In this document: positions 490-5,564 of the stretch, in pieces
Numbering within the stretch: the first letter of the stretch is position 1
Layout: each line of letters opens with the position of its first letter
Source of the DNA: Amycolatopsis alkalitolerans
Lineage (GTDB): Bacteria; Actinomycetota; Actinomycetes; Mycobacteriales; Pseudonocardiaceae
Direction: 5' to 3'
Length of the DNA stretch: 64,000 nt
Assembly: GCF_006152065.1 (NCBI RefSeq)
Contig: NZ_VDFW01000011.1
Location: forward strand, 62,001-126,000
Notes under the pieces: model-generated
The model's input: only the letters and a program-made list of their open reading frames with translations
Database searches by the model: none
What the model was told of the DNA's origin: nothing
Program-made: the position numbers and the translations under genes

Positions 490-873
490 TTGTCCACTCC
501 AGAAGAGTTGCGCTACACCGAAGAGCACGAGTGGGTGGCCACCGGCTCCGGCGGCGCGGTCCGGGTGGGGATCACCGACTACGCGCAGGACCAGCTGGGC
601 GACGTGGTGTTCGTGGACCTGCCCGAGGTGGGCAAGCGGGTCAGCGCGGGCGAGACCTTCGGCGAGGTCGAGTCGACCAAGAGTGTTTCGGAGCTGTTCG
701 CCCCCCTCGACGGCGAGGTCGCCGCGGTCAACAGCGCGGTCGTCGACGCCCCGGAGCTGATCAACAGCGACCCGTACGGCGAGGGCTGGCTCATCGAGAT
801 CAGGATCGCGGACGCGAGCGCCGTCGACGCCCTGCTCGATTCCGGGGCCTACCAGGCGCTCACCGCGGGTTGA
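490..873 (+). CDS. gcvH: Glycine cleavage system H protein
   Basis: Lipoyl carrier of the glycine cleavage complex; it shuttles the aminomethyl group between GcvP, GcvT and Lpd in the cytoplasm. 127 aa, the usual length. The lipoylation site is Lys64 in the conserved context ESTKSVSE. The TTG start is preceded by a purine-rich Shine-Dalgarno (aagaaagggg). It heads gcvH-garA-ftsR, the order of M. tuberculosis Rv1826-Rv1828. Neither gcvP nor gcvT is in the window, although a glycine riboswitch sits 3 kb downstream. Confidence 0.97.
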   Translation: MSTPEELRYTEEHEWVATGSGGAVRVGITDYAQDQLGDVVFVDLPEVGKRVSAGETFGEVESTKSVSELFAPLDGEVAAVNSAVVDAPELINSDPYGEGWLIEIRIADASAVDALLDSGAYQALTAG

Positions 874-1446: not shown

Positions 1447-2198
1447 CGGCTGCCGGGCGGCCACAGCGCGATGGGTTGAGCATCGGGGCCGTGCTGGCGC
1501 AGCTGCGCGGCGACTTCCCCGACGTGACCATCTCCAAGATCAGGTTCCTCGAGTCGGAGGGACTGGTGCAGCCCGGCCGCACGCGGTCGGGCTACCGCCA
1601 GTTCGCCCCGGCGGACGTCGAGCGCCTGCGGTTCGTGCTGTCCGCCCAGCGGGATCACTACCTGCCGCTGAAGGTGATCAAGGAGCAGCTCGATGCCGCG
1701 GACCGCGGCGCGGGCGAGCACGAGGCCACCGGGCCCCGGCTGCCTCGCAAGCTCGTGTCGCTTTCGTCCCGTTCCGGCGATGGGTTCGACGGGCTGCCCT
1801 TGGCCGGGGATTTCGCGCCGGGCCGCGAGGTCCGGCTCACCCAGGAGGAACTGCTGGCCGAAGCCGGCATCGACGAGCGCACCCTGGGCGAGCTGGAGCA
1901 GTACGGGCTCGTCCGGCCGGGGGCCGCCGGGTTCTACGACCCGGACGCGGTGCTGGTGGCCCGCACGGTGCGGGCGATGACCGAGTTCGGCATCGAACCG
2001 CGGCACCTGCGGGCGTTCCGGGCCTCGGCCGACCGTGAGGTCGGTCTGCTAGAACAGATCGTGACCCCGGTGTCCCGGCATCGTGACACCGACGCGAAGG
2101 CGCGCGCCGACGAAATGGTGCGGGAGCTGGCGGCGCTGTCGGTCACCTTGCATACGTTGCTGGTCAAGGCCGGTATCCGGGGCGTGACCGGCGGCTGA
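1443..2198 (+). CDS. ftsR: MerR-family regulator FtsR
   Basis: MerR-type transcription regulator matching M. tuberculosis Rv1828 and Corynebacterium FtsR, which activates ftsZ. 251 aa. The N-terminal winged-helix region (about residues 10-75) contains the FLESEGLVQPGRTRSGYR wing motif. A second MerR-like helical region at about 130-200 (LTQEELLAEAGIDE) is typical of this subfamily, which lacks an effector cysteine cluster. The GTG start overlaps the garA stop by 4 bp, so translation is coupled. Gene order and sequence agree; the ftsZ target is family knowledge, not shown here. Confidence 0.9.
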   Translation: MTAAGRPQRDGLSIGAVLAQLRGDFPDVTISKIRFLESEGLVQPGRTRSGYRQFAPADVERLRFVLSAQRDHYLPLKVIKEQLDAADRGAGEHEATGPRLPRKLVSLSSRSGDGFDGLPLAGDFAPGREVRLTQEELLAEAGIDERTLGELEQYGLVRPGAAGFYDPDAVLVARTVRAMTEFGIEPRHLRAFRASADREVGLLEQIVTPVSRHRDTDAKARADEMVRELAALSVTLHTLLVKAGIRGVTGG

Positions 2199-2426
2199 GG
2201 CTGCCCCGCGCCTCGTTGCCGGTCGGTAATGACACAGTTTCATGACTCTGCCTATCGCCTCGGATGCCGTACGGTTGGTTATGAGTTGCCGGACAGCGGA
2301 CGTGCGCCAGTCAACACGCCGAACAAGCGAGCACAGCGCCCGGACGGCGAGTAGCGTCGATGACATCGACGCGGGATCGTCGAGGCGGCGTTGCAGCCCG
2401 CGCACAGGAGAGGGAGGCGAAGTCCG

Positions 2427-2900
2427 ATGAGCGAGATGCGCGTCGTCGGCGTGCGGGTCGAGCTGCCCGCGAATCAGCCGATCTTGCTGCTGCGGGAGAC
2501 CGAGGGCGAGCGGTACCTCCCGATCTGGATCGGGTCCGTGGAGGCCACCGCCATCGCGCTGGAGCAACAGGGCGTGCGGCCGGCCCGGCCGCTGACGCAC
2601 GATCTGCTCAAAGAGGTCATCGGGGCGCTGGGCCGCGAGCTGGAACAGGTCGTGATCACGGATCTGCGCGAGGGCACGTTCTTCGCCGAGCTCGTTTTCG
2701 ACGGCGACATCCGCGTGTCGGCGCGGCCGAGCGATTCGGTCGCGCTCGCACTGCGCGTCGGGGTGCCGATCCACGCGGTCGACTCGGTGCTCGAAGAGGC
2801 CGGGCTGATCATCCCGGACGAGCAGGAGGACGAGGTCGAGAAGTTCCGCGAGTTCCTCGACTCGGTCTCGCCCGAAGACTTCCGCGGCGCGGACACCTGA
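2427..2900 (+). CDS. Bifunctional nuclease family protein (DUF151)
   Basis: 157 aa single-domain protein of the DUF151 family, whose plant members have RNase and DNase activity; the bacterial role is unsettled. It matches Rv1829 in position and pattern: the opening MRVVGVRVELPANQPILLL, then IWIGSVEATAIA and SDSVALALRVGVPI. ATG 2427 follows AGGGAGG at 2411-2417; an earlier in-frame start at 2391 has no Shine-Dalgarno. It is separated from ftsR by 228 bp, so it probably has its own promoter. An acidic tail (EDEVEKFREFLD) ends the protein. Confidence 0.9.
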   Translation: MSEMRVVGVRVELPANQPILLLRETEGERYLPIWIGSVEATAIALEQQGVRPARPLTHDLLKEVIGALGRELEQVVITDLREGTFFAELVFDGDIRVSARPSDSVALALRVGVPIHAVDSVLEEAGLIIPDEQEDEVEKFREFLDSVSPEDFRGADT

Positions 2901-2921
2901 GGCGAGCGGTTGGGGTGAGGT

Positions 2922-3029
2922 GTGTCCGCGGAAAGCGCGGACCTGGCTCGCCTCAGCGTGTTCCTTGGGGGTCGAACCCCCAAACCCCCGCCAGGGGGCG
3001 AGCCCCCTGGACCCCCCGCCGTGGTTGCG
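2922..3029 (+). repeat. Double-hairpin intergenic repeat, copy 1
   Basis: About 108 bp starting 21 bp after the DUF151 stop. It has two adjacent perfect hairpins: 2967-2981 (gggggt/accccc, 3-nt loop) and 2991-3010 (ccaggggg/ccccctgg, loop cgag). A second copy with the same layout and flanks lies at 3836-3947. It may act as a terminator or an RNA-stability element. There is no poly-T tail, so the role is inferred. Confidence 0.8.
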
Positions 3030-3096
3030 TTGATGACAGGGCTTATGGGCGTTGCATCAAGCCTCGATAACGGGTCGAGGCTGCCCGCGCGTCGCG

Positions 3097-3137
3097 TTGA
3101 CCACCGGGGCCCGCACGCTTACCGTCAAAGGCGGTAA
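3097..3137 (+). promoter_or_regulatory. Promoter and dyad upstream of merR
   Basis: TTGACC (3097-3102), a 17-nt spacer and TACCGT (3120-3125) form a good vegetative promoter pointing at the merR gene. The inverted repeat ttaccg-N7-cggtaa (3119-3137) overlaps the -10 box and the expected start site, so it could be an autoregulatory operator. The untranslated leader would be about 125 nt. The rest of the 2901-3258 gap holds only the repeat. Confidence 0.6.
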
Positions 3138-3258
3138 ATCGCCAAGATGTGATTCTCCCTGTCGGGTCACGTCGCGGGCGATGGCGCTGGCAGGGGTTCC
3201 GGTCCCGGAGCCCCGGTGCGTGGTTCGACCGGCCCCGGCCGGGCGAGGGGAGGCTTGC

Positions 3259-3825
3259 GTGGTCGACGATAGGCCGGTCAAGGCAGTCGACGGTGAGCAG
3301 GGTGAACTGTTCCCTGACTCGTCACTGCCTGATGAGCTGGTCGGTTACCGGGGGCCCGCGGCCTGCCAGATCGCCGGCATCACCTACCGGCAGCTCGACT
3401 ACTGGGCCCGCACGAAGCTCGTCGCCCCCAGCATCCGCACCGCGCACGGCTCCGGTTCGCAGCGGCTGTACTCGTTCAAGGACATCCTCGCGCTGAAGAT
3501 CGTGAAGCGCTTGCTCGACACCGGGGTGTCGCTGCAGAACATCCGCGTCGCGGTCGACCACCTGCGGGCCCGCGGCGTCGCGGACCTGGCGAAGGTGACG
3601 CTCGTATCGGACGGTACCACGGTCTACGAGTGCACCTCGCCCGAGGAGATCGTCGACCTGCTCCAGGGCGGGCAGGGCGTGTTCGGCATCGCGGTCAAGG
3701 TCCCGATGCAGGAGATCAGCGGCACGATCCACGAGTTCCCGGCCGAACGCGCCGACGGCGGCGAGATCGAGGCCGTCATCCCCGACGAGCTCAGCCAGCG
3801 GCGCAACGCCCGCCGTACGGGCTGA
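3259..3825 (+). CDS. MerR-family transcriptional regulator (Rv1830-like)
   Basis: 188 aa DNA-binding regulator. The winged-helix DNA-binding domain (about residues 30-100) contains AGITYRQLDYWARTKLV, GSGSQRLYSFKDILALKIV and RLLDTGVSLQNIR; the C-terminal half has no recognised effector motif. It corresponds in position to M. tuberculosis Rv1830, a MerR-like gene between DUF151 and gcvB. GTG 3259 is preceded by GAGGGGAGG at 3245-3253; the frame is open further upstream but without a start signal. It is bracketed on both sides by the same double-hairpin repeat. Targets are unknown. Confidence 0.88.
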   Translation: MVDDRPVKAVDGEQGELFPDSSLPDELVGYRGPAACQIAGITYRQLDYWARTKLVAPSIRTAHGSGSQRLYSFKDILALKIVKRLLDTGVSLQNIRVAVDHLRARGVADLAKVTLVSDGTTVYECTSPEEIVDLLQGGQGVFGIAVKVPMQEISGTIHEFPAERADGGEIEAVIPDELSQRRNARRTG

Positions 3826-3835
3826 GCCGGGCGAA

Positions 3836-3947
3836 GTCTGTTCGCGGAAAGCGCTCACCTGGGCTCACCCCTCGTGTCTTCTGGGGGTCGAACCCCCAGA
3901 CCCCCGCCAGGGGGCAAGCCCCCTGGACCCCCTTCCAGTGGTTGCGT
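3836..3947 (+). repeat. Double-hairpin intergenic repeat, copy 2
   Basis: Second copy of the element at 2922-3029, same orientation, beginning 10 bp after the merR stop. Hairpins are at 3883-3897 (gggggt/accccc, same loop) and 3907-3926 (ccaggggg/ccccctgg, loop caag). Shared flanks include cgcggaaagcgc on the left and gtggttgcgt on the right. Both copies sit directly downstream of stop codons. Confidence 0.8.
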
Positions 3948-3987
3948 AGGCGAGGTCATCTCGCTTCGTTAGGTGGTGAGCCCCCGA

Positions 3988-4015
3988 TTGTGCCGCGGTT
4001 ACCGTCAGGTAGGCT
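3988..4015 (+). promoter_or_regulatory. Promoter of the glycine riboswitch transcript
   Basis: TTGTGC (3988-3993), 16-nt spacer, TAGGCT (4010-4015). The predicted start near 4022 falls just before the first aptamer. The strength is unknown, but the placement fits a riboswitch leader. Confidence 0.5.
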
Positions 4016-4031
4016 GGCTTCGCAGTCGCCG

Positions 4032-4245
4032 AAGCCGTGCGGGAGAGACCGAGCCCCAACCCGGGCCCGGCGCCGAAGGAGCAAGTCCTCCCCGGAACCT
4101 CTCAGGCACCCGGACCGCGCGGACGAGACGCCTCTGGAAAGCGGGTCCAGGCCACAACCCGGTGACCCCGCCGACGGTGCAAACCCGGATCAACACCCGG
4201 GTGAACCTCTCAGGCGCCCCAAGGGCATGGACAGAGTGGGGAGGG
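4032..4245 (+). ncRNA. Tandem glycine riboswitch (gcvT element), no gene downstream
   Basis: Two glycine aptamers in series. Aptamer 1 shows gcgggagaga (about 4039-4048), gccgaaggagcaa (4072-4084), aacctctcaggc (4096-4107) and the closing cctctggaaagcgg. Aptamer 2 shows gccgacggtgcaaac (4170-4184), gaacctctcaggcg (4202-4215) and ggacagagtgggga near 4229-4242. These are the conserved blocks of the gcvT family, with the linker expected of a tandem switch. Such switches normally control gcvP or gcvT on the same strand. Here a terminator follows at once and the next gene is on the opposite strand. Confidence 0.9.
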
Positions 4246-4275
4246 CCCGGACGCCGAACGGTGCCCGGGCCCTTT
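4242..4275 (+). terminator. Terminator after the glycine riboswitch
   Basis: Stem agggcccgg (4242-4250) and ccgggccct (4265-4273), 14-nt loop, then TTT. It overlaps the end of aptamer 2, as an expression-platform terminator should. It also lies directly beyond the stop codon of the opposing NTF2-like gene, so it could terminate both transcripts. Confidence 0.75.
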
Positions 4276-4277
4276 GC

Positions 4278-4637
4278 TCAGCCGGGCATCTTGTCGAGAA
4301 AGCCCAGCACCTGCTTGATCTTCCCGCCCTCGGCTCGGACCGCGTCGAACCCGATAGCCACCGGCTCGGCGCCCTCAGGACCGAGATGCCAGGTGAACCG
4401 CGCGATATCGTGATGCCCGTCGACGGCACCGCCGAGGGTGAACCGCAGGCCCGCGAACTGCTGCTGCGCCCCGGCGATGAACCCGTCGATCCCGTCGTGG
4501 CCGGCGACCGCGGCGAGCGGATCCGTATAGCTGGCGTCCTCGGCAAACACCTCCTCGACCAGACCCCGGCGCTTCGCCGGGTCGGTCTCGTTCCACGCGT
4601 CGAGGTAGCGGTGCGCCAGGGCGGTGAACTCGGTCAT
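4278..4637 (-). CDS. NTF2/SnoaL-like small protein
   Basis: 119 aa protein of the NTF2-like (SnoaL) alpha+beta barrel superfamily. Members include polyketide cyclases, hydratases and binding proteins of unknown role. Visible signs are the N-terminal helix LAHRYLDAWNETD, the strand AEDASYTDPLA, and the repeated small-molecule barrel pattern ending VLGFLDKMPG. ATG 4637 is chosen because AAGGAGAA precedes it; the frame extends upstream to 4691 without support. It is transcribed away from the XRE regulator at 4758, which probably controls it. The substrate is unknown. Confidence 0.8.
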   Translation of the reverse strand: MTEFTALAHRYLDAWNETDPAKRRGLVEEVFAEDASYTDPLAAVAGHDGIDGFIAGAQQQFAGLRFTLGGAVDGHHDIARFTWHLGPEGAEPVAIGFDAVRAEGGKIKQVLGFLDKMPG

Positions 4638-4705
4638 CGTGTTCTCCTTGAGCCGTAACGGAAGCTGACGGGAGCAACTCTCGCGGGCCACCGCGCACGC
4701 TGTCG

Positions 4706-4722
4706 ATTACGCGAGAGGTAAT
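4706..4722. promoter_or_regulatory. Candidate operator between NTF2-like and XRE genes
   Basis: Inverted repeat attac-N7-gtaat, the only clear dyad in an AT-rich spot of this GC-rich intergenic region besides ggcgcc-N8-ggcgcc at 4723-4742. It sits upstream of both divergent genes and near the -35 region of the XRE gene. Confidence 0.4.
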
Positions 4723-4757
4723 GGCGCCGCCGCACCGGCGCCCGTAGCGTCTGGACC

Positions 4758-5564
4758 GTGACGACCATCCAGCGCCCGGTGGGCGAGCTGATCCGGCGGT
4801 GGCGCGAGCGGCGGCGCATCAGCCAGCTCGACCTCGCGATCTCGGCCGAGATCTCCACCCGTCACCTGAGCTTCGTCGAGACCGGGCGCGCCAATCCCAG
4901 CCGCGAGATGGTGCTGCGGCTCGGCGAACATCTCGACGTGCCGCTGCGGGAACGCAACCAGCTGCTGCTCGCCGCCGGGTACGCGCCGGCGTACTCGGAG
5001 AGCAGGCTTGACGATCCCGAGCTCGCCATCGCCCGCGACGCGGTGCGCCGGGTGTTGGCGGGGCACGAGCCGTACCCGGCCGTCGTCGTCGACCGGTACT
5101 GGAATCTGGTGGACGGCAACACGAGTGTCGGGCTGCTGACCGAGGGGGTGGCGCCGGACCTGCTCGCGCCGCCCGCGAACGTCCTGCGGCTCGCGTTGCA
5201 CCCCGACGGGATGGCGCCGCGGATCCGCAACCTGGGGGAGTGGCGCGCGGATCTGCTCGGCCGGTTGCGGCGGCAGGTCGAGATGACCGGTGACCCCGAG
5301 CTGGACCGGCTCCTCGACGAGGTCCGCGAGTATCCGGGCGACGAGCCGGAGGCCGGATTTCCCCGCCGTGGCGACATTTTCGTGCCGCTTCGGCTCTGCC
5401 ACGAGGGGACCGAGCTGTCGTTCTTCTCCACGATCGCCACGTTCGGCACGCCCGTCGAGATCACGTTGTCGGAGCTGGCGATCGAGTCCTTCTACCCGGC
5501 GGACGACGCGACCGGCGAGTACGTGCGGCGGCTCGCGGCGGCACGTGGCACGATCGGCGCATGA
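4758..5564 (+). CDS. XRE-family regulator with MmyB-like ligand-binding domain
   Basis: 268 aa. An N-terminal helix-turn-helix (about residues 8-65: LIRRWRERRRISQLDLA, STRHLSFVETGRANPSREM) is followed by an MmyB-type PAS-like domain (about 100-260) with VVVDRYWNLVDGN, the segment that binds small ligands or fatty acids in characterised members. A TAGCGT box at 4745-4750 lies 7 nt before GTG 4758 and there is no Shine-Dalgarno, so the mRNA is probably leaderless. Its stop overlaps the aldo/keto reductase start by 4 bp (ATGA), tying regulator and enzyme into one transcript. Confidence 0.88.
   Translation: MTTIQRPVGELIRRWRERRRISQLDLAISAEISTRHLSFVETGRANPSREMVLRLGEHLDVPLRERNQLLLAAGYAPAYSESRLDDPELAIARDAVRRVLAGHEPYPAVVVDRYWNLVDGNTSVGLLTEGVAPDLLAPPANVLRLALHPDGMAPRIRNLGEWRADLLGRLRRQVEMTGDPELDRLLDEVREYPGDEPEAGFPRRGDIFVPLRLCHEGTELSFFSTIATFGTPVEITLSELAIESFYPADDATGEYVRRLAAARGTIGA

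Follow-up and report, generated by a model that had tools for sequence, protein, structure and literature searches.

Riboswitch RNAs that act in trans include SreA and SreB of Listeria and the B12 riboswitch small RNAs EutX and Rli55, and the ligands of these examples are SAM or B12. Such RNAs are rare and act on distant mRNAs or proteins, according to an excerpt of a review (PMC7266159) that cites Loh 2009, DebRoy 2014 and Mellin 2014. Short riboswitch RNAs are also formed in Sinorhizobium meliloti, where the small RNAs RZ, RA1 and RA2, detected by Northern blots, result from termination at the metZ and metA riboswitches before a living gene (excerpt of PMC9373788). In the extracts available from three further papers, glycine riboswitches appear with the genes that they regulate: they precede gcvT-gcvH and gcvP in Streptomyces lividans (PMC8079986), in Streptococcus agalactiae one lies upstream of a living transporter gene (PMC4448216), and a 2025 survey of contiguous riboswitches treats them together with their regulated genes (PMC12452182). 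No orphan, trans-acting or stand-alone glycine riboswitch was found in the titles and opening lines of abstracts, a partial coverage that is no proof of absence. Judged likewise by titles and the beginnings of abstracts, none of the papers found on Amycolatopsis RNA-seq, small RNAs or riboswitches concerns such a switch, and no paper on an Amycolatopsis glycine riboswitch was found.

The tandem glycine riboswitch described here lies in a 64,000-nucleotide stretch of the Amycolatopsis alkalitolerans genome (the window), behind a gene encoding a MerR-family regulator, and has no gcvP gene behind it. That the switch has stayed intact across the genus after deletion of gcvP suggests that it is now a small RNA in its own right, probably a free-standing, glycine-sensing RNA of about 250 nucleotides that ends at the hairpin behind aptamer 2 and acts in trans. 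Like SreA, SreB, EutX and Rli55, it would carry a metabolite aptamer in a short RNA, here a putative transcript with a likely action in trans; it differs from them in that the ligand would be glycine rather than SAM or B12 and in having arisen by deletion of the regulated gene. With RZ, RA1 and RA2 it would share the form of a short riboswitch RNA ending at a terminator (here a putative transcript and a candidate hairpin), but the regulated gene still lies behind the switch in those cases, and those RNAs were detected on Northern blots.

The two intact glycine aptamers proposed in an earlier note on this DNA were confirmed by covariance search, each scoring above the Rfam gathering threshold for RF00504 of 32 bits, which was applied per aptamer (Table 1). 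A covariance scan of the whole window listed aptamer 1 alone, as the two matches overlap by 4 bases and only the best of the clan was kept. The switch is present at the MerR site in all 19 genomes of the window's genus, and its tandem aptamers have the conserved core and paired helices of RF00504, with 89.8% of cells forming standard pairs across these relatives; a few pairs of the model are not formed (in helix 4, and single pairs in helices 5 and 7). Judged by sequence and structure, the orphan is a member of RF00504, but it fails in the cis control of a neighbouring glycine gene: no match to gcvP lies directly behind the switch in any of the 19 genomes.

The earlier note had also placed a promoter at 3988-4015 and a terminator at 4242-4275. 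The TANNNT box is kept in all 19 genomes (18 by pattern search, with G003, which the pattern missed, added from the alignment), while the -35 candidate, TTGTGC at 3988, is weak and a sigma-70 promoter scan flagged none at the riboswitch site. The terminator-like hairpin is likewise kept in all 19 genomes and covaries; in the window it is GC-rich, with 12 pairs and one internal mismatch, and is followed by a weak T tail (4 T in 8). A terminator scan at the riboswitch site left it unflagged, and a U-tract (at least 5 T in 8) was found behind the hairpin in only 3 of the 19 genomes. Intrinsic terminators with poor U-tracts have been described in actinomycetes. The assignment of a putative promoter and terminator is based on comparison, not on consensus scans. 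The predicted fold of the putative transcript of about 250 nucleotides is no more stable than those of shuffled sequences (z -1.38).

Table 1. Features of the orphan riboswitch locus, in coordinates of the window
Feature	Position	Strand	Evidence and remarks
gcvH, still in place	490..873	+	PF01597
MerR-family gene preceding the riboswitch, synteny anchor	3259..3825	+	PF13411
-10 box TAGGCT (TANNNT)	4010..4015	+	TANNNT at near-equal distance from the riboswitch in 19/19 genomes of the genus
Putative free-standing transcript, ~250 nt	4022..4275	+	inferred from -10 box and hairpin
Glycine riboswitch aptamer 1	4030..4127	+	RF00504, 55.3 bits, E 1.2e-08
Glycine riboswitch aptamer 2	4124..4244	+	RF00504, 47.1 bits
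Terminator-like hairpin behind aptamer 2	4243..4272	+	10-14 pairs, 19/19 genomes, compensatory changes
Convergent SnoaL_2 gene	4278..4637	-	PF12680, 50.1 bits; at the site in 16/19 genomes of the genus

Among the matches listed, those to the MerR-family gene cover 120 of 120 family genomes, belonging to 46 genera. Two sets of loci anchored on this gene were compared: a family set of 60 (one locus per genus for the 45 other genera, plus 15 further loci) and a named set of 80 actinobacterial loci, which partly overlap (the same contigs recur, for example at L143, L152 and L207), so that their counts are not independent. The order MerR - riboswitch - gcvP was found in 46 of the 60 family loci, some with at least 1 kb between the MerR gene and the switch, and in 75 of the 80 named loci. 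These counts point to gcvP behind this switch as most likely the ancestral state. The other family loci have gcvP without the switch (two, L077 and L122), neither gcvP nor the switch (11, in the five other genera g15, g25, g33, g41 and g44), or the switch without gcvP (one, in G027 of genus g10). Among the other named loci, two have the switch alone (A. thermalba and A. deserti) and two have neither (Prauserella endophytica and A. antarctica); L213 is cut by a contig end. L077 was counted as lacking the switch since the pattern match lay inside gcvP and RF00504 found none in the genome. This genome, G020, with gcvP behind the MerR gene and no switch, belongs to genus g3, of which all four genomes (G020, G065, G096 and G117) are without an RF00504 match among the matches listed. 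One locus of a record titled Kitasatospora arboriphila (L202) has MerR - riboswitch - gcvP as in the Mycobacteriales records, and is possibly foreign DNA or a mixed assembly.

Genus g16, as well as A. thailandensis and A. roodepoortensis (L139 and L142), has the gene order of the window with gcvP in place. All four g16 loci have MerR - riboswitch - gcvP, and the three that are not cut by a contig end continue with SnoaL, XRE regulator and aldo-keto reductase genes. An assembly error at the site, raised in the earlier note, is very unlikely because 18 further genomes of the genus also have the MerR gene and the switch without gcvP; with 19 of 19 genomes in agreement, both this explanation and a very recent loss of gcvP were rejected. 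In a nucleotide tree of merR, which is built on one short gene and has no support values shown, the window's genus (g1) forms one clade and g10 is placed beside a g21 genome. Because of this placement, the orphaning in g10 looks independent of that in the window's genus. The wider proposal, of a stand-alone, trans-acting, glycine-sensing RNA throughout the genus, together with another orphaning that seems to have taken place separately in the single g10 genome, is advanced tentatively as a possibility.

The only gcvP found in the genome of the window is on another contig, C30, in a gcvP-gcvT-sdaA operon behind a tandem glycine riboswitch of its own; a genome search with GcvP gave no gcvP still located behind the orphan switch. 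With this GcvP as the query, a search of 34 genomes found one copy, of the operon type, in each of the 9 genomes of the window's genus tested. Two kinds of GcvP are present in g16 (4 of 4 genomes) and g21 (2 of 2), one 78-82% identical to the query and the other, at the MerR site, 65-71% identical; genera g10, g15, g25, g33, g41 and g44 have the first kind only (78-81%). Two of the four g16 genomes have a GcvP copy that is fragmented or truncated at a contig end, and the copy in G010 has two stops within the match. The earlier suggestion that gcvP was lost or moved while the switch persists is supported both by the g16 order, in which gcvP is in place, and by the remaining GcvP, which is of the other type and encoded in an operon elsewhere. 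The second gcvP operon would have made the gcvP at the MerR site redundant.

In the operon on contig C30 (L054), the open gcvP reading frame extends into the 3' strand of P1 of aptamer 2 (ATGACAGAGGGGGAG), so that the operon copy may have its start codon within the riboswitch. In 3 of the 19 genomes of the genus, G007 (L063), G016 (L073) and G018, there is a third tandem glycine riboswitch. In L063 and L073 it is located at about 2000-5300 in switch orientation; in L063 it precedes genes for gcvH, serine hydroxymethyltransferase and serine dehydratase, and the arrangement in L073 is similar.

Comparison within the genus supports the view that selection preserved the orphan switch as the genus diversified. 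Both aptamers were listed by genome search in 14 of the 19 genomes and the first only in G005, G006, G010, G014 and G016, for which searches of the whole locus again gave aptamer 1 alone; all five align through both aptamers, and aptamer 2 of G005, searched by itself, scored 47.0 bits. The core motifs of the aptamers are intact in all 19 genomes save for one change in one motif (G010). The mean pairwise identity of the orphan switch is 0.838, versus 0.647 at fourfold sites of merR, in 18 genomes (G006, with an incomplete merR match, was left out); in the same 18 genomes the gcvP-linked operon copy is the more conserved, at 0.887. Pairs with changes on both sides number 11, divided between the hairpin (six) and the aptamers (five), and none of 500 shuffles reached this count; the count of further pair types was reached by 40 of 500. 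One column of the hairpin has G-C, C-G and A-U exchange, with similar exchanges at other columns, and most core aptamer pairs never vary and so are uninformative for covariation. Sliding the partners lowers the proportion of standard pairs to at most 52.6%, in a test that leans towards structure since the structure was derived from one of the sequences.

In favour of a decaying relic that has survived by chance since the loss of gcvP are the lower conservation of the orphan relative to the gcvP-linked copies and the core motif change of G010. Such a relic is nevertheless very unlikely, given that the switch is kept in all 19 genomes, has the 11 pairs changed on both sides and exceeds the fourfold sites by far in identity, and that in other lineages the switch was lost together with gcvP; because 11 of the 60 family loci are without both, keeping the switch is not the default. 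Selection on the hairpin alone, as a terminator between the MerR gene and the convergent gene, would account for a hairpin that covaries and is kept in all 19 genomes, but explains neither why the aptamer cores are nearly invariant nor why the -10 box is kept, and is highly improbable. The loop CACAAC in the P2 extension of aptamer 2 occurs without change in 16 of the 19 orphans, while the surrounding stem varies. This loop was considered as an orphan-specific seed loop and rejected, as near relatives that bear gcvP carry similar loops; no seed is claimed.

The orphan shares with the gcvP-linked RF00504 switches behind MerR the same aptamer pair and place, a closely similar P1 block and, often, the aptamer-2 hairpin; it differs from them in the lack of gcvP, in a hairpin more stable than 43 of 46, and in a P1-competing strand that is weaker on average. 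The expression platforms were compared with those of 59 loci (the 60 family loci minus the orphan L084), 13 of which are not switch-gcvP loci; those with a tail unmatched by the pattern were left out, so that 46 of the 59 gave values for the hairpin and 36 or 45 for P1 competition. Hairpin energies, computed with the closing pair enforced, have a median of -23.4 kcal/mol in the 19 orphans (-20.7 to -27.9) versus -11.0 kcal/mol in the 46 gcvP-linked switches (-5.5 to -24.2; p 4e-9), three of which fall within the stability range of the orphans. In the gcvP-linked relatives, base pairing is predicted between the 3' flank of P1 and sequence behind the hairpin. It is strongest in g16 (-14.1 to -16.9 kcal/mol, 4 of 4 loci) and would compete with the glycine-bound form of P1. 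The predicted pairing in the 19 orphans amounts to -4.5 to -10.6 kcal/mol (median -8.0, versus -10.3 in 45 gcvP-linked loci; p 0.0035), and another comparison of the P1-competing strand, with 36 gcvP-linked loci, gave p 0.008. A clean loss of the P1-competing strand in the orphans was rejected, there being only a modest shift of medians. Because the orphan hairpin is more stable and the predicted P1-competing pairing weaker, the platform is read as having shifted from switching towards providing a fixed 3' end.

Domain matches confirmed the gene neighbourhood reported earlier for the window, with an opposite-strand gene next, a plus-strand XRE gene after it and gcvH upstream. Only 5 bases separate the hairpin from the convergent SnoaL_2 gene, the product of which we take to have an NTF2-like fold. 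On the plus strand the next gene begins at 4758; its product is a regulator of the XRE type that has an MmyB-like ligand-binding domain. Directly behind the orphan switch there is a convergent gene in 17 of the 19 genomes of the genus and an aldo-keto reductase gene in two, and an XRE gene is found downstream on the same strand in 16. Three genomes (G009, G010 and G011) are without a SnoaL gene at the site but keep the aptamers, the TANNNT box and the hairpin. The aldo-keto reductase gene comes next in G009 and G010, and in G009 its open reading frame starts a short distance past the hairpin. Behind the switch of G011, the recognisable genes occupy the opposite strand over about 6 kb, no match to the XRE regulator or the aldo-keto reductase was found there, and the plus-strand reading frames, which overlap minus-strand genes, were judged not to be genes.

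Two readings in which the switch acts on its neighbours in cis bear on this arrangement. The first, offered in the earlier note, is that glycine binding gives read-through and thereby an RNA antisense to the convergent SnoaL gene; this gene lies a short way past the hairpin in 16 of 19 genomes, and several orphans also have a predicted alternative pairing of the P1 flank with sequence behind the hairpin. This reading is unlikely, since the hairpin is stable in all 19 genomes, no SnoaL match was found behind the orphan switch of g10, and the three genomes without the SnoaL gene keep the rest. The second, that read-through lets the switch control a same-strand gene further on (the XRE regulator or the aldo-keto reductase), is quite unlikely: the same-strand XRE genes and the position of the aldo-keto reductase frame in G009 would suit it, but in the window the XRE gene starts about 480 bases on, past the opposite-strand gene, neither gene was matched behind the switch in G011, and the next plus-strand gene varies while the switch is constant. 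Because G009, G010 and G011 keep the switch, the box and the hairpin, antisense control of the SnoaL gene and cis control of the XRE gene were both rejected as the common reason for retention.

We infer that, of the options in the earlier note, the one that remains and fits best is that the switch makes an independent RNA. In the course of events proposed for this free-standing RNA, the ancestor would have carried gcvP twice, at the MerR site and in the gcvP-gcvT-sdaA operon, with a separate tandem glycine riboswitch before each copy. In the line leading to the window's genus, the gcvP at the MerR site would have been deleted together with the far half of the expression platform, as synteny supports, and the riboswitch, the promoter box and the aptamer-2 hairpin would have been retained by selection during divergence of the genus, as the comparison of genomes supports. 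By computed energies, the hairpin is now much more stable than those of most gcvP-linked relatives and the P1-competing strand is weaker than in the closest of them. The RNA would act in trans on an RNA or a protein, and glycine would alter its shape, stability or availability.

Should this RNA be transcribed and bind glycine, it would represent a glycine riboswitch that has no associated gene. The family provides a natural experiment in how a cis riboswitch could become a regulatory RNA of its own, with a before-state in g16 (the switch with gcvP and a second gcvP operon), an after-state in the window's genus, and controls of full loss in g15, g25, g33, g41 and g44. These states are found side by side in one family, and therefore the steps are comparable and testable.

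The MerR gene of the window is also flanked by a GC-rich repeat of 32 bp (GGGGGTCGAACCCCCA...), at 2967-2998 and 3883-3914. With up to 2 mismatches allowed, the reversed control sequence gave no copies in the genome and the repeat itself gave nine.
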